Source: an uncultured Phycisphaerales bacterium
Lineage (GTDB): Bacteria; Planctomycetota; Phycisphaerae; Sedimentisphaerales; Anaerohalosphaeraceae
DNA: 64,000 nucleotides
Assembly: GCA_937868095.1 (NCBI GenBank)
Contig: CALMLO010000033.1
Span: 1-64,000, forward strand
Direction of reading: 5' to 3'
Made by a program: the position numbers and the translations under genes. Below the pieces are notes generated by a model. It did not search any database, was not told the origin of the DNA, and worked only from the letters and a program-made list of their open reading frames with translations. Position 1 is the stretch's first letter, and each line of letters opens with the position of its first letter. This document shows positions 50 through 11,515 of the stretch, piece by piece.

Positions 50-1834
50 ATGACGGAACAAAAACTTGGAAAAATCGTCAAGGTGGCCGGCCCGGTGGTG
101 GCGGCTGAAGGAATGACCGGTGCCCATATGTACGATGTGGTGCGTGTCGGAGAAGAGAACCTCATCGGCGAGATCGTGGAACTCAACGGTGATATGGCCA
201 GCATTCAGGTCTATGAAGATACGGTCGGCATCGGCCCGGGTGAAAAAGTAGTCAATACGGGCGCCCCGCTGAGCGTGGAACTCGGCCCGGGGCTGATTTC
301 GAATATTTACGACGGCATTCAGCGGCCGCTCAGTGCGCTGGTGGAAGCCCAGGGGAGTTTTATCAAACGGGGCAGCGATATTCCCGGCCTGCCGCGGGAT
401 AAGAAGTGGCACTTTAAGCCGACCGTTCAAAACGGCAGCGAGGTACAGCCCGGCGATGCTATCGGTGAAGTGCAGGAGTCCTCGCTGGTTCTGCATAAAA
501 TTATGGTGCCGCCCGGCGTGCGGGGACGGCTGGAGGGGCTTTCCGAGGGCGAGTTTACCGTAACCGAGCAAATCGGGACGGTGAAGACCAAACAGGGAGA
601 ATACCCGCTGACACTGATGCAGAAATGGCCGGTTCGCCGTCCGCGTCCGGTTCAGCGGCGGCTGAATCCCAACAAAATCCTGCTGACCGGCCAGCGCGTC
701 ATCGATGCCTTCTTTCCTATAGCCAAAGGGGGCACGGCCTGCGTGCCTGGGCCGTTCGGCACCGGTAAAACCGTTGTTCAGCACCAATTGGCCAAATGGG
801 TTGATGCGGATATTGTCGTCTATATCGGCTGCGGGGAGCGCGGCAATGAGATGACCGATGTGCTGATGGAGTTTCCCGAACTGACAGACCCTCACAGCGG
901 AGAGCCGCTGATGAAGCGTGTGGTTCTTTTGGCCAACACGTCGGATATGCCGGTGGCCGCCCGCGAGGCGTCGGTTTATACGGGCATCACGATTGCCGAG
1001 TACTTCCGGGATATGGGGCTGTCAGTGGCTCTGATGGCCGACAGCACAAGCCGATGGGCGGAGGCAATGCGGGAAATCTCGACGCGTCTGGAAGAAATGC
1101 CGGCCGAAGAAGGGTATCCGGCTTATCTGGGGGCAAGGATTGCCTCCTTCTATGAGCGGGCCGGTCGGGTCATCTGTGCCGGCAGTCCCCAGCGGGAAGG
1201 GGCGCTTTCTATTATCGGGGCGGTCAGTCCGCCCGGCGGCGACCTGTCCGATTCGGTTGTTCAGGCCACGCTGCATGTGGTGAAGGTTTTCTGGTCTCTG
1301 CTGGCCCGGCTGGCTCAGCAGCGGCATTTTCCGGCTATTGACTGGCTGACGAGTTATTCCTTCTACAAGCAGTATCTGGCGGACACCTTCGAAGACAAGG
1401 AGAAAGGGCGTGAGTTTGTCCAGATGACGCGGGAGGCGATGGTCCTTTTGGAGAAAGAATCGGAACTGGTGGAAATCGTTCGGCTGGTGGGAGCGGAGGC
1501 CATCAGCGCTGCCGACCGGATGGCTCTGGAAACAGCCAAAAGCATCCGTGAAGATTTTCTGCATCAGAACGCCTTTCACAAGGTGGACACTTATACGCCG
1601 ATTGAAAAACAGTATGATTTGCTCAAATTGATTCTTCATTTTCATCGGCAGGGGCTGGCCGCCATTGAGCGGGGTGTGGAGCCGGCGGAGCTGTTTGCAC
1701 TGCCGGTGAGGGAAGAGATTGCCCGAGCCAAATACATCGACTATACAGAAGCGGAGAAGATTCAGGCCATTCTGGACAAAATTGACAGCCAGATTAAGGA
1801 ACTTTATTCAGCCAAAATGCAGGAAGCGAAATAA
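50..1834 (+). CDS. atpA (ntpA): V/A-type ATP synthase catalytic subunit A
   Basis: Catalytic subunit of a V/A-type rotary ATPase, 594 residues, the usual length for the family. The N-terminal beta-barrel is followed by the long non-homologous insert typical of V-type A subunits (about residues 110-190). The Walker A motif GPFGTGKT lies at residues 234-241, and the GERGNE and [10 protein letters not shown] motifs follow. Subunit B starts 20 bases downstream and subunit D follows it, so the three form one operon. Genes for the stalk and membrane subunits (E, I, K) would be expected upstream of the window edge and are not seen here. The complex couples ATP to H+ or Na+ transport; the sequence read here does not tell which ion is used. 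Confidence 0.97.
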
Positions 1835-1854
1835 TCCGACAGCAGGAGTTTGGA

Positions 1855-3276
1855 ATGTTAAAAGAATATAGAACCGTTCAGGAAATTGCAGGTCCTCTGA
1901 TGCTGGTGGAAGGGGTGGAGCGGGCCAAATACGGTGAAATTGTAGAGATTGAGATCGGCGACGGCTCCTATCGGCACGGCCAAATCCTTCAGGTGGAACG
2001 GGATAAGGTGCTGGTTCAGGTCTTTGAAGGAACCGAGGGGATTGATGTTCGGGACACGACAGTTCGGTTTCTGGGCAAGCCGATGGAGCTGGCGGTTTCG
2101 CCGGATATTCTTGGCCGTGTTTTCAGCGGGACCGGTCAGCCCAAAGACGGCGGGCCGGCCATCATTCCTAAAAAGCGGCTGAACATCAACGGCAATCCAA
2201 TCAATCCGTATGCCCGCGACTATCCGAATGAATTTATTCAGACGGGAATCAGCACAATCGACGGGCTGAATCCTCTTGTTCGGGGTCAGAAATTGCCGAT
2301 TTTTTCAGGTTCGGGTCTGCCTCATGATGAAATTACGGCGCAGCTGGCTCGGCAGTCTACCGTGCTCGGCAAAGGCGAAAGTTTTGCGGTGGTGTTTGCG
2401 GCAATGGGCATTACGTTCGAGGCGGCGCAGTTTTTCATCAATGACCTGACGGAGACAGGGGCCATTGAGCGGGCGGTTCTGTTTATCAATCTGGCCAGCG
2501 ACCCTGCCATTGAGCGAATTTCCACGCCGCGTGTGGCCCTGACCGCCGCCGAATATCTGGCGTTTGAAGAAGATATGCATGTGCTGGTGATTCTCAATGA
2601 TATGACTAACTATTGCGAGGCCCTGCGTGAAATCAGTGCCGCCCGCAAGGAAGTGCCGGGCCGGCGCGGCTATCCCGGCTATCTTTATACAGACCTGGCC
2701 ACGATTTATGAACGAGCCGGACGAATCAAGGGCAAAAAAGGGTCGATTACGCTGGTTCCGGTGCTGACAATGCCCGAAGATGACAAAACCCATCCGGTGC
2801 CCGACCTGACCGGCTATATTACGGAGGGCCAGATTATTATGAGTCGGGGGCTTCATCGGCGCGGGATTGCGCCGCCGGTGGATGTTCTGCCGAGTTTGTC
2901 CCGTCTGAAAGACAAGGGCATTGGGCCGAAAAAGACCCGCGAAGACCACGCTGACTTGTACAACCAGCTGTATGCCGCTTATGCACGCGGCAAGGAGGCG
3001 CAGGAACTGGCAACCATTCTGGGCGAGGCGGCTCTGTCCGCAGAAGACCAGAAGTATATGAAGTTTGCCAACGAATTTGAAAACCGCTACATTTCGCAGG
3101 GATATTATGAAAACAGAACTGTTTTTCAGACGCTCGATCTCGGCTGGGAACTGCTGAGCATGTTTGAAAATGCGGAACTGAAACGAATTGATACCAAACT
3201 GATCGAAAAGTACATGCCCCGTTTTCGCAAAGAAACAGGGAATTCCGAGCAAGCGGAGCAGAACAACAAGAAATAA
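1855..3276 (+). CDS. atpB (ntpB): V/A-type ATP synthase subunit B
   Basis: Non-catalytic nucleotide-binding subunit that alternates with subunit A in the hexameric head, 473 residues. It has no Walker A lysine-threonine motif; in its place is [10 protein letters not shown], as normal for B subunits. Other family marks are [10 protein letters not shown], the [14 protein letters not shown] stretch and RLKDKGIG. It starts 20 bases after subunit A and ends 8 bases before subunit D. The first residues, [16 protein letters not shown], match the usual B-subunit start. Confidence 0.97.
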
Positions 3277-3284
3277 TTTGGCCT

Positions 3285-3905
3285 ATGCTGCAGAACGTCA
3301 ACGCAACCCGGATGGAAATGCTTCAGCTGCGAAGGCGAGTGGCGCTGGCCATGCGCGGTCACCGTCTGCTGAGCGAAAAGCGGGATGAAATCAGCCGGCA
3401 GCTGGTTCTGATTTCCAAATCGCTCAAAATGCTCCGTCAGCAGGTCGAAAAAGAACTGCTGGAAACCTCGCGGCGATTCGTCATCGCCCGCTCCACCATG
3501 GAGCCGGAAAGTGTAAATGCCGCCCTGGAAATCCCGACTAAAAAGTTCTCCCTGACCATCCGGTTTGCGAGCATTATGAATGTCAAAGTGCCCGAATTGA
3601 CCAAGCAAAGCGAAGGAGACATTCTTTGTTATGGTTTTTCCACAACCAGCGGGGAACTGGATGCCGCCCTGCGGGCTCTTGAGCGGGCCTTTGATATGCT
3701 CATTGAACTGGCCGGCAAGGAAAAACAGGCCCAGCTGCTGGCGTCGGAACTCCAGAGCACCCGCCGACGGGTGAACGTCCTCGAACACGTTGTCATTCCC
3801 GAACTTCAGGAAACCATTCGGTACATCTACAACAAACTCGGCGAGGCCGAACGCGATAATATCAGCCGACTGATGATTATTGCCGACATGATACGCGGAG
3901 AATAA
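3285..3905 (+). CDS. atpD (ntpD): V/A-type ATP synthase subunit D (central stalk)
   Basis: Central rotor-stalk subunit of the V-type ATPase, 206 residues. It opens with the family signature NATRMEMLQLRRRVALAMRG, and long heptad-rich helices at both ends form the coiled coil that inserts into the A3B3 head. The C-terminal helix reads RRRVNVLEHVVIPELQETIRYI, a hallmark of subunit D. It is the last gene of the operon: a hairpin begins inside its stop region and the next gene appears to have its own promoter. Confidence 0.95.
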   Translation: MLQNVNATRMEMLQLRRRVALAMRGHRLLSEKRDEISRQLVLISKSLKMLRQQVEKELLETSRRFVIARSTMEPESVNAALEIPTKKFSLTIRFASIMNVKVPELTKQSEGDILCYGFSTTSGELDAALRALERAFDMLIELAGKEKQAQLLASELQSTRRRVNVLEHVVIPELQETIRYIYNKLGEAERDNISRLMIIADMIRGE

Positions 3906-4043: not shown

Positions 4044-5909
4044 ATGTCTGAGCCAAGCATTGCAAAACCAGCAGCACCGACCAAATCGTTTATGACGGCC
4101 GGTCCAACCCTTCATTACAGCCATGCCAACGTGCACGGCTGCTGGTTGCTGTCTATCGTCGTCTATGCAGGGATATGCCTTTTCTGGGCCCGTCTGACCA
4201 ATGGACAGTTTCTGGTTCTCAATCTGCTGGAGTTGTTTTATCCGAGTCAATGGCATTTGGGGCGGGTTGTTACGGAACCCTTAAGCATCTACGAGTATCC
4301 CTGGCAGATCGCCATTCTCGGCACGTTAATGGGGCTTTTGGCGGTTACCCCTTTGCTGACGGCTCAGTTGATGAGTTTTCGATACAGTGTGCCGCTGGTT
4401 CTGCTGCTGATGTTTCTGGCCCGTCTTCCGCTGCTTGGTGTTTTTGAACTGCTCAGCTGCATTGCGGTTGCCTGCCGTCCGCTTCGGTTCCGGTCGCGAG
4501 TTGTCTCGCTGGCGCTGTGCCTGGCCGGACCGATGATATACTGGGCGTTTTTTGGCGGGATTTCAAGCAGCGACCCTATTCGCTGGGGGATTTCTTTTAC
4601 CCCGTGGATTTATTCGTGGCTGATTGCGATGCTGATTGCCGGGGTGGTGATTGCAATCGGGCATTACAACCGCTATCGTCCGGGGCTTATTTGGCTGATT
4701 ACGCTGATGGCGGCAGGGATTACCTACCTGACCTTTGAAAAAACCATCGGCTTTGACGAACTGGATTATCAAATGTATGTAGCGGGCAACAACCCCGAAA
4801 AACAGGTTGAATTTCACGACCATGTTCTAACCCGCTATCTGGACCGGATTCTTGCGGATGAAATGCGGTACAGTTATTTTGCCGGCTATTTTTATCCGAG
4901 CGATAAGATTGACCTCCGGAAAAAACTTCGGGAGGAGATTGAAAGTCTGCTGTATTACAACCGCTGGCCGCAATGGTTTCTCACCGACATTCCGGAGGAA
5001 CTTCGGTATCAATCCAAGAAGAGCCAGCTGCTGGCCCAATACAACTACTTTCTTGAAAAACGGCCATTCAGCCGGCGAGTTCCCATCGCTCTCTATTTTA
5101 AGGCCATGGTAAACGAGCTGACGCCGGATGCCCGCTATTTCGGGCAGACGGAGATTCTGCGATTTTACAACGACTATCCCTTCTATGAAAATCTGCATAT
5201 TTGGCAGGACCTGCTGGTGCGGTTTCCGGACAGTCCGGAGGCACTGGAAGCCCGCTGGCGGGTGGCGGTTCATACGGCCGGACAGGGACGTTTCAAAGAG
5301 GCAGCGGAACTGTGCAACGTTGACCTGGCCCTGGTTTCAAAAACGACGGCCTCTCTTTCGGAACCCCCTGTTTCGCCGGGTGGTCTTTTAACGGCTTTCG
5401 CCCCGCCTGCCAAAACAGTAATGACCCGCTATAAACTTCAGGACCTGCGAAGCCGACTGCTGATTCTGAAGGAGACAATTTCCCCTGCCAACCAAGGCAG
5501 CAGTGAAGCAGAAAAACAGCGTCTGGCAAGGTTTGTTCTTCTGAATCCGTACGGCTTTCATTACCCTTTCCAACTAGAGGAATTGCTCACCTCTATGTCC
5601 GCAGACGATCCGCTTCGGGACAATGTTCTGACGGCTCGTGCACGTCTGATTCAAGATTTGCAGGTGCGTTCCGCTGCTTTGCGAGAGATTTGGGAAAAAT
5701 ATCCTGAGCAGGACGGGGGCATCCAGGCCCTTTATGAACTGGGAGCAATCCGGCTGCAGCAATGGAAAGAAAGCAAGCAGGGAGAAGCCAAAGGTGAACT
5801 GCTGGCGGAAGCACGCTCGCTGCTGAATCGCGTCATTCAAAACTATCCTCAAAGTCCGTTTGCAGAGTTAGCAGGTCGTCTTCTGGCCCCTTTAGCCAAT
5901 CTTGACTGA
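4044..5909 (+). CDS. Polytopic membrane protein with TPR-like C-terminal region
   Basis: Unrecognised family, 621 residues. The first 235 residues hold about six membrane helices (roughly 33-50, 87-108, 116-145, 153-171, 188-206, 213-231). The rest is soluble and helical, with repeated pieces such as WQDLLVRFPDSPEALEARWRVAVH and LLNRVIQNYPQSPFAELAGRLL that look like tetratricopeptide or Sel1-like helices used for protein contacts. No clear Shine-Dalgarno site precedes the ATG. A gap of 356 bases and a new promoter separate it from the Hsp70 cluster, so co-function with that cluster is possible but unproven. Confidence 0.75.
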   Translation: MSEPSIAKPAAPTKSFMTAGPTLHYSHANVHGCWLLSIVVYAGICLFWARLTNGQFLVLNLLELFYPSQWHLGRVVTEPLSIYEYPWQIAILGTLMGLLAVTPLLTAQLMSFRYSVPLVLLLMFLARLPLLGVFELLSCIAVACRPLRFRSRVVSLALCLAGPMIYWAFFGGISSSDPIRWGISFTPWIYSWLIAMLIAGVVIAIGHYNRYRPGLIWLITLMAAGITYLTFEKTIGFDELDYQMYVAGNNPEKQVEFHDHVLTRYLDRILADEMRYSYFAGYFYPSDKIDLRKKLREEIESLLYYNRWPQWFLTDIPEELRYQSKKSQLLAQYNYFLEKRPFSRRVPIALYFKAMVNELTPDARYFGQTEILRFYNDYPFYENLHIWQDLLVRFPDSPEALEARWRVAVHTAGQGRFKEAAELCNVDLALVSKTTASLSEPPVSPGGLLTAFAPPAKTVMTRYKLQDLRSRLLILKETISPANQGSSEAEKQRLARFVLLNPYGFHYPFQLEELLTSMSADDPLRDNVLTARARLIQDLQVRSAALREIWEKYPEQDGGIQALYELGAIRLQQWKESKQGEAKGELLAEARSLLNRVIQNYPQSPFAELAGRLLAPLANLD

Positions 5910-6265: not shown

Positions 6266-7615
6266 ATGGGTGTGGACAATCAGGAAACAAGTTCAGCCAA
6301 AAATTGGTTTACCTGGGCGCTGCTGGCCCTTCTGCCCGGTCTGACCGGCTGGTGCATTGTCCTGACACAAAAGCAGATTCAGCAAAATCGAACGGACAAT
6401 TACCACCAGATCAGCCGACAGCAGAAGGATGAATTTCTGCAGAAGTACGAGGAATGGAACCGGCTCAGCGAGCGTGAAAAGATGGAAAATCCGTGGGGCA
6501 GCGGCCCTTACGGCGGACCGGAGATGCAGAAAAAACTGATGCTCCATCAGGAGGAGCGTCTGCTGGCGGACCTTCCGGAACTGGCCGCGGAAACAGACTT
6601 GCCCGAGGAATTGGGAGAGATGCTCTATGGGCCGGGATGGAAACTGCGAGTCCAGAAATACCAGAAACAAATTGAATATCAGGAAATTCTGGGTATTTTT
6701 TCATCGATTTTACTGCTCACCGGCGGTCTGGTTCTTTTGATTGGAATCCTTCTGCGGCTGGCGACCCTGCGAAGAATCAAAAAGGGCGAAGCCGACGCAA
6801 AACCAAAATCGCCAAAAACAGCCGGCCCAACAGCCGCTGACAAAAATTCTTCTGAACAGCCGAGTAAGGTTTCTGAAGAGAAGAAGGAAAAAGAAGAGGA
6901 AGAGGAAGTTCACCTTTTCACAAGAAAAACTCCCAGGCAAAAACCGTCGGCGAGGCCGTGTGCAAACGCACCCTCTGAATCGAACGGCCAGCCGCAGCCA
7001 ACCATCCCCAGGGCAGCTGCATCCATCAAGTCCAGCCCGCCTGCCGTTTCTCCGGCGGAGTCTTCCTCTTCGCTGTCGGCAGGCGCTGCCGCGGCTTTGC
7101 TGACTGAACCGGAGCCGGCCGTTTCAGACCCGATTCTTTCTTCCCTCATGACGCCGATTCCGGTGGTGCAGGGGCTTTCGGATCTCAGTGAGCAAATGTC
7201 GGCCATTCGGGAATTCGCCGCCGAACAGCAGAATCAGGTGAAAAAACTTCAGGACGGCTACGACTGGATGCTCATCAAGCGGTTCTGTCTGCGGATTATC
7301 CGGTGCGTTGATAATATTGAAGACCGCATGCGGCAGCTTCAGAAGGATAATCAGGATATCAGCGCTCTGAAAGATATTCGCGATGAGATTCTCTTTGCAC
7401 TGGAATCCAGCGGGCTGGAGCAATTTGAACCGGAGGTGGGGCTGGAATACCGCGGACTGGAACGGTATGCCGAAGCCATCAAGGAAAAAGAAAACAACAG
7501 CGAACCGGAAAAAAGCGGACGGATTGCCGAAGTAGTCCGTCCGGGCTATCAATATTTGATTAATGATGAGGAAGTGAAAATCGTTCGATGCGCACAGGTC
7601 AAACTGTATGCCTGA
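6266..7615 (+). CDS. Membrane-anchored GrpE-like nucleotide exchange factor
   Basis: 449 residues, more than twice the length of GrpE. A membrane helix lies at about 14-34, then a charged stretch at 35-140, a second helix at about 141-167, and a low-complexity Pro/Ser/Glu linker at about 170-295. The C-terminal 150 residues resemble GrpE: a long helix (about 303-360) that includes VDNIEDRMRQL, the ESSGLEQFEPE turn, and a beta domain ending GRIAEVVRPGY with VKIVRCAQVKLYA. With two helices, the 35-140 loop should face outside and the GrpE part should lie in the cytoplasm. The Hsp70 gene starts 30 bases downstream. I infer that it is the ADP-exchange factor for that Hsp70. Confidence 0.75.
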   Translation: MGVDNQETSSAKNWFTWALLALLPGLTGWCIVLTQKQIQQNRTDNYHQISRQQKDEFLQKYEEWNRLSEREKMENPWGSGPYGGPEMQKKLMLHQEERLLADLPELAAETDLPEELGEMLYGPGWKLRVQKYQKQIEYQEILGIFSSILLLTGGLVLLIGILLRLATLRRIKKGEADAKPKSPKTAGPTAADKNSSEQPSKVSEEKKEKEEEEEVHLFTRKTPRQKPSARPCANAPSESNGQPQPTIPRAAASIKSSPPAVSPAESSSSLSAGAAAALLTEPEPAVSDPILSSLMTPIPVVQGLSDLSEQMSAIREFAAEQQNQVKKLQDGYDWMLIKRFCLRIIRCVDNIEDRMRQLQKDNQDISALKDIRDEILFALESSGLEQFEPEVGLEYRGLERYAEAIKEKENNSEPEKSGRIAEVVRPGYQYLINDEEVKIVRCAQVKLYA

Positions 7616-7644: not shown

Positions 7645-9195
7645 ATGGGCATGATTGCAGGAATTGATTTGGGAACCACCTTTTCGGCGCTGGCGATTCT
7701 AAACAAAATCGGCCGGCCGGAAGTCGTCCCGAACAGCGAAGGAGAACGGCTGACGCCGTCGGTGGTTTATTTCGATGACGACCAGGATGCAACGGTTCGC
7801 GTGGGCATTGAAGCACTTAACTGCCGGCAGCTCAATCCCGACCGCGCTGTTCGATGGATTAAACGGCATATGGGAGACTCCCAATGGCGAAAAACCATCG
7901 GCAATCGAGTCTGGACGCCTGAGGAAATTTCAAGCTTGATTCTGAAAAAACTCAAACAAGATGCTGAAATGATTTATCCAGGTATCGAAAGCGTGGTAAT
8001 TTCCGTACCGGCGCATTTTGACGAAGTCCGGCGGAAAGCGACAATGGATGCCGGGGCGCTGGCGGGACTGAATGTCATCGGGATTGTAAATGAACCGGTG
8101 GCCGCAGCCCTGTATTACGCCACGACGCACGATGTCAACGGTCGTGTTTTGGTGTATGACCTTGGCGGAGGCACCTTTGACGTGACGATTATGGATGTGA
8201 GCGGGCAGAATATTACCATCGTCTGCAGTCAGGGTGATCACGCCTTGGGCGGAATGGATTTTGACCGAAAAATTCTCCAGATTTTTGAAAAGGCCTATCA
8301 GGAACAGACCGGTCAGCCGCTGATTACAAATCCTCAGGAACAGGCCCAGTATGAAGACGAGGCCGAAGATGTCAAAAAGACCCTGTCGCGCCGGCCTTCC
8401 GCCAAAAAAGTTCTGTACGGAAAAGGCGGCAGCGCCCGTGTGGAGATTACCCAGCAGCAGTTTGAAGAGGCCGCCGAACCGCTGGTGGGCCGGACCGAAA
8501 TGCTGATTGATGTAAGTCTTCAGGAAATCGGCTGCTCCGCTCAGAAAATCGACCAGGTGCTTCTGGTAGGCGGCAGCACCCGCATTCCGCTCGTTCAGCA
8601 GCGGCTGACGGAAAAATTCGGCAAGCCGCCGGTTATGGCCGTCAATGTAGATGAATGCGTCGCCCTGGGAGCGGCTATCCATGCCGGCCTGACCCTGCTG
8701 CGCAACCATCCTGAGCAGGTGGAGGCGGGCATCGCCGGGGGGCTGCGCGACATCAAACTCAAAGACGTCTGCAACCACAGCTACGGGACGTTGTGTGCTC
8801 CGATTGACGAAACAACCGGCAAGCATGTTATTCGCAACAGCATCATTCTGAAAAAGAACACCCCGCTGCCCTGCGAAGCCATGCAGACCTTTTATACGAT
8901 GTGCGACGGTCAGACCGAACTTCAGGTTACTATTACTCAGGGAGAAGACGAAGACCCGGACTTTGTCAACAAAATCGCCACGGAAATATTTGAACTGCCT
9001 CCGCACCGGCCGGCCAACCGCCCGATTGTGGTGCGCTACAGTTACGACCTGAACCAGCGAATGCACTGCTCCTTCTGTGATGAAGAATCCGGACGGATAC
9101 TCGAAGTGGATTTGGCTCTGTCGGAAAGCGGAGCCGCGCTGGAAAAATCCATTCAGCAAAAAACGGAAGAAATCGCCAGATTTCAGGTTCATTGA
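7645..9195 (+). CDS. Lidless Hsp70 (DnaK/HscC-like) chaperone
   Basis: 516 residues against about 640 for DnaK. The ATPase domain is complete: phosphate-1 motif GIDLGTTF (6-13), EPVAAALYYA, phosphate-2 motif YDLGGGTFDVT (about 170-180) and adenosine motif LLVGGSTRIPLVQ (about 308-320). The substrate-binding beta domain begins near residue 370 (LKDVCNHSYGTL) and is divergent. The protein ends where the alpha-helical lid of DnaK would start, so there is no lid and no EEVD-like tail. It lies between a GrpE-like gene and a J-like gene, which gives it its likely partners. It is probably a specialised Hsp70, not the housekeeping DnaK. Confidence 0.92.
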   Translation: MGMIAGIDLGTTFSALAILNKIGRPEVVPNSEGERLTPSVVYFDDDQDATVRVGIEALNCRQLNPDRAVRWIKRHMGDSQWRKTIGNRVWTPEEISSLILKKLKQDAEMIYPGIESVVISVPAHFDEVRRKATMDAGALAGLNVIGIVNEPVAAALYYATTHDVNGRVLVYDLGGGTFDVTIMDVSGQNITIVCSQGDHALGGMDFDRKILQIFEKAYQEQTGQPLITNPQEQAQYEDEAEDVKKTLSRRPSAKKVLYGKGGSARVEITQQQFEEAAEPLVGRTEMLIDVSLQEIGCSAQKIDQVLLVGGSTRIPLVQQRLTEKFGKPPVMAVNVDECVALGAAIHAGLTLLRNHPEQVEAGIAGGLRDIKLKDVCNHSYGTLCAPIDETTGKHVIRNSIILKKNTPLPCEAMQTFYTMCDGQTELQVTITQGEDEDPDFVNKIATEIFELPPHRPANRPIVVRYSYDLNQRMHCSFCDEESGRILEVDLALSESGAALEKSIQQKTEEIARFQVH

Positions 9196-9197
9196 GT

Positions 9198-10379
9198 ATG
9201 GCCGAGCACTGGCTGAACATTCTGCTGTTCCTTCTGACGCTGGCCGCTCTTGTGACTCTAAGCGGACCGGCGAACCTGCGTCGGCGGCTCAGCCGTTTGT
9301 TTCCGGCTTTTCATCCGGAGCGTTTTGCCTGCCGGGTCCTGCTGGTTGAAGAGGAAAAGGATGCTGTTTACCGGGACGTGCTGAAAATTCAAATTCATGG
9401 CGCCATCCGTGCACCGCACAGCCGATGCGAAACAAACATCCTGATTCAGCTGACGGACGTTACGAAAAAAAACAGTGCCCCCAAACCAGTGCTGTGCCGA
9501 TATCCGGCGTGGTCTTCCGACGGAACACCCGCTTATCAGTACAAGTTTCACAACGGCCCGCTTCCGGCCCGTTTGTCTGTGCTGAAGGATTGGGTTACGG
9601 TAGCCGAAGTAGAGGTCAACGAGCTGGTTTTCCCTCGGCGCGGCCCAGCCCTTCTTGAATGCGAGGTGACGGTACTGGAAGAGGCCGTCGGCAAACCGCT
9701 GGCCAGCGCCCGCAGTCAGATTTCTCTGCTGTCCGGACAGTACGGATATGAGGAAATCCAGCAGCAGCGTCTGAGCAAGCAAACGGCGATGCAGCAGCTG
9801 GCCGAAGCTGTCTGGCACCTGACCGCCCCCAATCCTGCCGGCTGGGAACTGCTCTGTCAATGGCTGCAGCAGGGGCAGGAAACAGGGCCGCAGCCGCCCC
9901 CTCGCCCCAAATCGACTGAAGAAAGCACATCCGCCATGGAGGAGGCCTGCGAGCAGCTGCCGGGATACGCAGAGCCGGGCGACTGCTGTGGTATTTTTGA
10001 ACTGTGCATTCGAATCGCCGGCTCCGCTTCCAGGATTTCTCAATCCCTGCTGAAGACCCTCCGCTATATCGCGGAAAAACTGGAGATTCCCAAAGACCGA
10101 TACGAATCGCTGGTGCAGAAACACCTCACCGGCAAAGCTGAACAAATCGAAGAGCCGCTGACGCTGCTGGGACTCAGCGAAGAGATGTCCGAACAGCAAA
10201 TCATGGAGAAGCTGACCGCCGAATACCGCAAATGGAACGCGCGGGTGAACAATCCAGACGCAGCCGTCCGACAGCAGGCAGACCAAATGCTGAATCTCAT
10301 TGCCCAGTGCCGCAGCCGCTTGACCCGACGCGTTCAGTCGGCCGGCACTGATTCCAGAGCGTTATCTTCTGAAGGTTGA
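9198..10379 (+). CDS. Membrane-anchored TerB/J-like protein, HPD absent (DjlA-like layout)
   Basis: 393 residues from the ATG at 9198; a TTG at 9192 that overlaps the Hsp70 stop is an alternative. Residues 5-23 form one membrane helix. The middle (45-185) is beta-rich and unrecognised. Near 265-310, GIFELCIRIAGSASRISQSL with YIAEKLEIPKDRYESLVQKH resembles a TerB-type helical domain. Residues 323-377 follow a J-domain pattern (LLGLSEEMSEQQI, LTAEYRKWNAR, MLNLIAQCRSRL), but the HPD tripeptide is missing. The order helix-TerB-J is that of DjlA. I infer a membrane partner of the upstream Hsp70. The C-terminal end overlaps the convergent GH5 gene by 46 bases. Confidence 0.65.
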   Translation: MAEHWLNILLFLLTLAALVTLSGPANLRRRLSRLFPAFHPERFACRVLLVEEEKDAVYRDVLKIQIHGAIRAPHSRCETNILIQLTDVTKKNSAPKPVLCRYPAWSSDGTPAYQYKFHNGPLPARLSVLKDWVTVAEVEVNELVFPRRGPALLECEVTVLEEAVGKPLASARSQISLLSGQYGYEEIQQQRLSKQTAMQQLAEAVWHLTAPNPAGWELLCQWLQQGQETGPQPPPRPKSTEESTSAMEEACEQLPGYAEPGDCCGIFELCIRIAGSASRISQSLLKTLRYIAEKLEIPKDRYESLVQKHLTGKAEQIEEPLTLLGLSEEMSEQQIMEKLTAEYRKWNARVNNPDAAVRQQADQMLNLIAQCRSRLTRRVQSAGTDSRALSSEG

Positions 10380-11515
10380 CGTTCTCCAGCACTTGCAGCG
10401 GAATCGGGAAGGAGCAATTCTTCTGTGCGGCTCTCACAAGGCAAATCGTCATTGCGTTTTTCGTAGAGGTAATCCTTCACAAAACAGCCCATCTCATCAG
10501 GACCGCACCGCAGCGTCCAATCCGGATTGAACATTTTCGGCAGCCAGTCATAGCTGGCTACCCAGCAGGTGGTGCTGATTTTGTATTTTTCCGTCAATTC
10601 CATCAAGGGCCGGCCGTAATTATCAATAGTAGCCGGCGGGATGCGGTTGTGAGGGAAACTCCGGCTGAACCCCCATTCGCTCATAAAGACCGGATGTACC
10701 GAGACACAGCGGAGGAGATGGTCTTTGTACCATTGGGCGTTTTCGCTCAGCCAGTGCATAGGATAGATATGGGAGACGATCGCATAATTCCTGCCGCCAA
10801 GCGGGTCATTGATGGGATGGTCTGCTGCCGGGCCGATGATTTGCGAATAGTTGGCGCCGGCAATCAGCAGCAGCGTCCGCGGGGCATACTGCCGCACCAG
10901 ATTCACCCATTCCTGCATATCCTTGCGCACGCTCAGCCAGCATTCTTCATCGGTGCCGACTTTGTTGATCGGCTCGTTGAACAGTTCAAAAAGGACATGG
11001 CTGTCGCCGGCAAATCGCGGCGCCATATATTCCCAAAACTGACGGGTCGTCTGCCGGTGGTCAAACGTGTTTCCGATATAGTGCCAATCCACAATTGCAT
11101 ACAAACCTTTGGCGGCGCAATAATCCACGACCGGACGAAGCAGTTTTTCATAGAAATCATCGCGGCCCGGCTCAAAGGTCCACGGGCTTTTGTAATCTTC
11201 CTCGTCAGCCGGATAAATCGGAATACGAATCACCGTAGGATACCAGCCGGGCGAGGAGCCCTGGGGGTCGTCCCGATTGGTCAGCCGGTCAATCATCTGA
11301 ATGGCACCGCCGAACTCTTTTTCTGTGCCGCCTAAATCAATCAGCGACACCCCGCGCAGAACGACGATACAGCCGGCCGGGTCCTTCAGGACCGTGCCGT
11401 CAGCGTGCAGCCAGGGCGTCACAGCGGACGCCCAGCCCAGCCATACAAAAACACCCAGCACCACCCCGCCGCTCCAATCCCCAATGGCGGATGTCCGATT
11501 CTTTTTCCTCTTCAT
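10334..11515 (-). CDS. Secreted glycoside hydrolase family 5 endoglucanase-like
   Basis: 393 residues with a basic N-terminus and a hydrophobic segment at about 16-33, so it is secreted or anchored. The TIM-barrel GH5 marks are present: LRGVSLIDLGG, IVDWHY (about 141-146), the acid/base in FELFNEP (Glu181), SHIYPMHW and the nucleophile in FMSEWGF (Glu280). It probably cuts beta-1,4-glucan or a related polymer; substrate cannot be read from sequence. It begins 12 bases after the GH94 gene, preceded by GAGGCGGCC as ribosome site. The two likely act in series, cutting outside and phosphorolysis inside. Confidence 0.9.
   Translation of the reverse strand: MKRKKNRTSAIGDWSGGVVLGVFVWLGWASAVTPWLHADGTVLKDPAGCIVVLRGVSLIDLGGTEKEFGGAIQMIDRLTNRDDPQGSSPGWYPTVIRIPIYPADEEDYKSPWTFEPGRDDFYEKLLRPVVDYCAAKGLYAIVDWHYIGNTFDHRQTTRQFWEYMAPRFAGDSHVLFELFNEPINKVGTDEECWLSVRKDMQEWVNLVRQYAPRTLLLIAGANYSQIIGPAADHPINDPLGGRNYAIVSHIYPMHWLSENAQWYKDHLLRCVSVHPVFMSEWGFSRSFPHNRIPPATIDNYGRPLMELTEKYKISTTCWVASYDWLPKMFNPDWTLRCGPDEMGCFVKDYLYEKRNDDLPCESRTEELLLPDSAASAGERQPSEDNALESVPAD

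Follow-up and report, generated by a model that had tools for sequence, protein, structure and literature searches.

A predicted J-like domain without HPD, conserved beside a lidless Hsp70 and a GrpE-like protein in planctomycetes

The HPD motif has been treated as indispensable to the function of J proteins. In DnaK, residues R167 and Q378 contact the Asp of this motif (PMC8215388, PMC13012618), while H33 of the motif meets the backbone of L391 and P34 meets P419 (PMC8215388). Type IV J-like proteins have been defined by a J fold whose HPD is non-conservatively replaced (PMC13254874), and a 2026 review regards it as enigmatic whether J proteins without HPD are accidents or were selected (PMC13254874). 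Variant contacts appear feasible, since D35N in DnaJ suppresses R167 variants of DnaK, J proteins with HPE work with HscC (PMC13254874), and a designed J analogue lacking HPD has been reported to stimulate Hsc70. The locus described here lies in a window of 64,000 nucleotides (the whole stretch of DNA that was analysed) from an uncultured Phycisphaerales bacterium. It encodes a real and conserved J-like domain, predicted from its fold and lacking HPD, as part of a membrane-anchored system with its own lidless Hsp70, and so varies the J-like/Hsp70 theme. As clade-wide conservation is combined with an invariant motif and with an Hsp70 devoid of the contacts for the HPD Asp, the accident-or-selected question becomes testable in a compact three-gene system.

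The features of the locus are collected in Table 1. The J-like gene begins with an ATG (there is an in-frame TTG at 9192) and directly follows the gene for the lidless Hsp70, which is itself preceded by the gene for the GrpE-like protein. The latter has two hydrophobic segments and a C-terminal GrpE domain, as judged from hydropathy and Pfam. The J-like gene product is arranged in the order transmembrane helix, Ig-like, TerB-like and J-like domain; its N-terminal hydropathy exceeds 1.6, as does that of 71 of the 91 family ORFs. The Ig-like domain is closest to the beta domains of transglutaminases and glycoside hydrolases (best VIA Z 8.3), and AlphaFold2 places helices at residues 184-226, between it and the TerB-like part. 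Of 59 relatives, 36 match Pfam TerB, with a best E of 2.6e-8; the window copy itself does not. A convergent ORF (10334-11515, minus strand), by reading of its sequence a putative glycoside hydrolase, shares 46 bases with the 3′ end of the J-like gene. Upstream of the trio, positions 50-3905 of the window encode subunits A, B and D of a V/A-type ATPase, and positions 4044-5909 encode a multi-pass membrane protein with a TPR-like C-terminus, whose place ahead of the trio is conserved in the genus and in part of the family. This 621-aa gene was considered as a core part of the system and rejected, since it is missing from six further loci that were inspected, of which five lie outside the family. 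A defence role was likewise set aside, the PADLOC matches being marginal and unrelated.

Table 1. Features of the GrpE-like, Hsp70 and J-like locus (positions in the window)
Feature	Position	Strand	Basis
Membrane-anchored GrpE-like protein	6266..7615	+	Pfam GrpE 8.5e-6, just over cut-off; conserved upstream of Hsp70
Lidless Hsp70, 516 aa	7645..9195	+	Pfam HSP70 1e-97
Membrane-anchored TerB/J-like protein	9198..10379	+	ORF; family of 60+ relatives
N-terminal transmembrane helix, residues 2-22, then RRR	9201..9263	+	AlphaFold2 helix; hydropathy
Ig-like beta sandwich, residues 43-180	9324..9737	+	AlphaFold2; VIA
TerB-like helical domain, residues 240-316	9915..10145	+	Pfam in relatives; AlphaFold2 helices
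Predicted J-like domain without HPD, residues 320-390	10155..10367	+	AlphaFold2; fold searches
W346-N347-A348-R349-V350; N-A-R at the HPD site	10233..10247	+	VIA/profile register; 60-sequence alignment
Loop NNPD before helix III; THPD in closest relatives	10248..10259	+	Alignment of relatives

The sequence-only reading had proposed a three-helix J-like fold on the basis of peptides that map to 10164-10331 of the plus strand, and this proposal is borne out by AlphaFold2, Foldseek and VIA, no other fold having been found. A full-protein AlphaFold2 model built from 62 aligned relatives (pLDDT 92.9) has helix I at residues 320-324, helix II at 332-347, a seven-residue loop at 348-354 and helix III at 355-390. 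Because fold searches with the whole model were swamped by the Ig-like domain, the J-like domain (320-376) was folded separately, with a pLDDT of 90.8. J domains made up nine of the ten best Foldseek rows for the domain alone, the tenth being a Euglena ATP-synthase subunit; probability reached 0.98 and TM 0.73, with E-values above 0.3 because the query has only 56 residues. VIA gave Z 6.8 against 6rzy, Z 5.9 against the J domain of DnaJ (5nro_B; rmsd 2.0 Å over 51 residues) and Z 5.4 against the HPD-less Tim16 (2guz_B). Modest significance is to be expected for 56 helical residues, and the weight lies with consistent ranking and full-length coverage; residues 320-376 are thus predicted, with high confidence, to form a J-like hairpin. 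By sequence alone the J domain is not clearly recognisable: the Pfam search of the window protein gave no match, so that it falls below the PF00226 gathering cut-off, PF00226 was matched in only two of 59 family members (E about 0.1), and J domains taken from the same organisms were matched only weakly in profile-profile comparison (probability 15-24%). Matches of the C-terminal alignments to PDB profiles involve only designed helical repeats over about 20 residues of helix III and are regarded as spurious.

The position of the HPD site follows from a gapless register, obtained from VIA and a local profile match, in which LLGL...KW lies over ILGV...KY or VLGV...KY. VIA pairs residues 1-56 of the model with residues 6-57 of DnaJ, so that N347-A348-R349, at the end of helix II, falls on H33-P34-D35, and W346 on the aromatic residue preceding HPD. 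Two relatives with KW-HAR and the distant G660 copy with KY-NAR at this site support the register. That HPD is missing had been recognised from the letters alone; the site itself had been placed at VNNPD, about four residues too late, in what is the loop before helix III.

Conservation was counted in 60 distinct relative sequences, across which the J-like domain shows no length variation. W346 and R349 are invariant (60/60), V350 is present in 59, and G324 or its equivalent is invariant as well. HPD occurs at the aligned site in none of the 60; the first position is N in 47, S in 11 and H in two, the second A in 35, S in 20, G in three, C in one and Y in one, and the third R in all. Invariance of W346 and R349 together with the complete absence of HPD points to a motif under selection and not to one in decay. 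A site changed in all 60 sequences argues for a loss that is old and fixed. In distant copies, which come from another order and from a different class of the phylum, the stretch is KWRSRA and KWRARA. The earlier concern that the window merely carries a single mutation is answered by the same alignment: in 17 of the 60 the letters H-P-D do occur, at residues 352-354, which lie five residues past the HPD site and ahead of helix III, where most other relatives have NSD, SSD or NTN.

The J-like gene is carried by 88 of 148 relatives. A locus search with an alignment as query returned 76 loci, all planctomycete-labelled except one at a Pontiellaceae contig edge, and a locus search with the single window protein as query found no relative. 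Phylum-wide searches detected the family in only eight of 392 genomes, order searches around two distant genomes added one further distant relative (G660), the near relatives among public records are MAGs that carry Phycisphaerae or Sedimentisphaerales labels, and a plasmid search found none. The Pontiellaceae-labelled copy (L171:50-271, with KWNSRV) reflects either transfer or misbinning. One genome (G099) has, besides a first J-like copy with the full trio (L048), a second copy (L053) in whose stretch no Hsp70 was detected; in another (G040) the paired Hsp70 (L254) and the J-like gene (L068) lie on different contigs, with no Hsp70 in the J-like stretch.

The order GrpE-like, Hsp70, J-like is kept in nearly all loci whose contig extends far enough, and sequence comparison indicates that the trio is conserved in Sedimentisphaerales-type planctomycetes, an order-level clade. 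Among 45 relatives in which presence and absence were scored by the author's reading of search results, the paired Hsp70 accompanied the J-like gene in 24 of 26 genomes and was found in at most one of the 19 that lack this gene (Fisher 2e-9). The operon encodes no J protein with HPD. A single canonical DnaJ, with HPD, and a single canonical DnaK are encoded elsewhere in the genome of the window, and trio-bearing genomes retain an HPD DnaJ and an R167 DnaK.

The partner Hsp70 has about 516 aa versus 644 for the organism's own DnaK, and ends after SBD-beta without the SBD-alpha lid. In the window copy R167 is G, Q378 is H and the linker reads DIKLKD. The catalytic residues D8, T11, K70, E171, D194, T199 and D201 are kept in 54 of 54 partner Hsp70s, as are L391 and P419, and D393 is also unchanged. 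At position 167 Arg has given way to G (44 sequences) or A (10). Three partners retain Q378, and 47 of the other 51 have H; every one of the 54 carries M in place of K155 and V in place of T173, and 53 have H instead of Y145. Both R167 and Q378 are invariant in 30 DnaKs from the same clade. E. coli HscC, whose identity to DnaK (33%) is much like that of the window Hsp70 (34%), retains R167, Q378, Y145, T173 and E217. Cysteines in DVC-NHSYGT, LPC and RMHC and before SQGD are present in 54 of 54 lidless Hsp70s, and that of (T)xCAP in 52 of 54; they are missing from the organism's own DnaK at the compared positions and perhaps have a redox or metal role. Other divergent lidless Hsp70s of the same order, with R167 changed, occur at loci L252, L253 and L255-L258, where no J, TerB or J-like gene was detected.

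The extent to which these substitutions are tied to the loss of HPD is limited by the divergence of the paralogue as a whole. As 132 of 247 DnaK-invariant NBD columns, more than half, are changed in the lidless paralogue, the changes at R167 and Q378 alone are not significant; substitution at R167, Q378 and E217 was not significantly higher than general divergence (P 0.15), and a wider set, selected in part informally, gave P 0.017 against the same background. In distant relatives that also lack HPD, one of three partner Hsp70s has R at 167 and another K, so that the two losses are not strictly coupled. A stronger claim of co-evolution was dropped on these grounds, and the co-loss of HPD and R167 is suggestive and not statistically proven. 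In the likely order of events, HPD was lost first, and drift or remodelling of the Asp pocket followed.

A mechanism can be proposed from the fold, the motif, its conservation, the operon and the partner substitutions, which sequence comparison or prediction has shown. On balance, the protein probably acts as a dedicated co-chaperone that docks on its own Hsp70 as a J domain does, with WN-x-RV replacing HPD. The N-terminal helix would serve as its membrane anchor, with the protein probably on the cytoplasmic side, and the TerB-like and Ig-like domains would be its likely client or scaffold parts. The J-like hairpin would dock in the groove formed by NBD, linker and SBD-beta of the neighbouring Hsp70, with W-N-x-R-V as the switch in place of the aromatic residue and HPD: R349, at the position of the HPD Asp, would face the G or A that stands where R167 would be, and the groove would keep its backbone and Pro contacts. 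Different contacts may then trigger or bias ATP hydrolysis, and the membrane-anchored GrpE-like protein would exchange nucleotide. Two further observations count against this reading: the acidic residues that bind helix II are kept only in part, and R167 is also lost in lidless Hsp70s without a J-like neighbour. A bolder proposal, that the two proteins form a natural J/Hsp70 pair with an altered switch in which the invariant W-N/S-x-R-V, with no HPD, activates an Hsp70 that has neither R167 nor a lid, is held only tentatively. If true, HPD and R167 would be one solution and not a mechanistic requirement; the trio may also be a possible source of orthogonal Hsp70/J pairs.

The main competitor to such docking with different contacts is a Pam16-like tether that would bring Hsp70 to the membrane without stimulating it, hydrolysis being left to the client or to the cell's single canonical DnaJ. 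Alteration of HPD abolishes stimulation in the J proteins tested (PMC13254874), Tim16/Pam16 is among the fold matches, and a canonical DnaJ is indeed encoded elsewhere in the genome; however, that DnaJ would need both R167 and Q378, which the partner has lost, the operon supplies no HPD protein of its own, and the replacement motif is invariant where drift would be expected. The sequence-only reading had left open whether the protein recruits Hsp70 without stimulating it or uses a different contact, and the latter is favoured because R167 and Q378 of the partner are replaced; the tether is rather unlikely. It is improbable that the hairpin serves the TerB protein for structure or dimerisation and makes no contact with Hsp70, the operon reflecting a common client. 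Weak sequence homology to J domains and the lidless Hsp70s that lack such a neighbour would fit this idea, yet gene order and co-occurrence with Hsp70 are strict, and the invariant residues cluster at the tip of helix II and in the loop, where J domains contact Hsp70. Least credible is a shifted register with a longer helix II, in which the THPD of relatives at 351-354 is the true motif, mutated only in the window species: the 17 relatives bearing it do include the window's closest, but AlphaFold2 ends helix II at N347 and makes this stretch the last part of the loop, most of the family has other residues there while W-N/S-x-R is invariant, and the paired Hsp70s of the THPD-bearing relatives also lack R167.

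The docking co-chaperone favoured here has parallels in several known systems. Like HscC with DjlB and DjlC, the locus combines a divergent Hsp70 with dedicated membrane J proteins whose motif is altered; The acid, however, is preserved in HPE, as are R167 and Q378 in HscC, whereas in the present locus motif and contact residues alike have changed, the Hsp70 has no lid and a GrpE-like protein accompanies it. DjlA, a membrane-anchored co-chaperone of DnaK, shares the N-terminal membrane helix, the TerB-like domain and the C-terminal J-type domain; unlike DjlA, the window protein has an extra Ig-like domain, no HPD and an adjoining dedicated Hsp70 that is not DnaK. With the type IV or pseudo J proteins (Pam16/Tim16, DnaJB13 and the plasmodial type IV JDPs) it shares a J fold in which HPD is non-conservatively replaced. 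It differs from them in that its J domain is not clearly recognisable by sequence and its partner Hsp70 is without the HPD-Asp contacts, and in being bacterial, with an invariant replacement motif, and encoded together with its own Hsp70 and GrpE-like protein.
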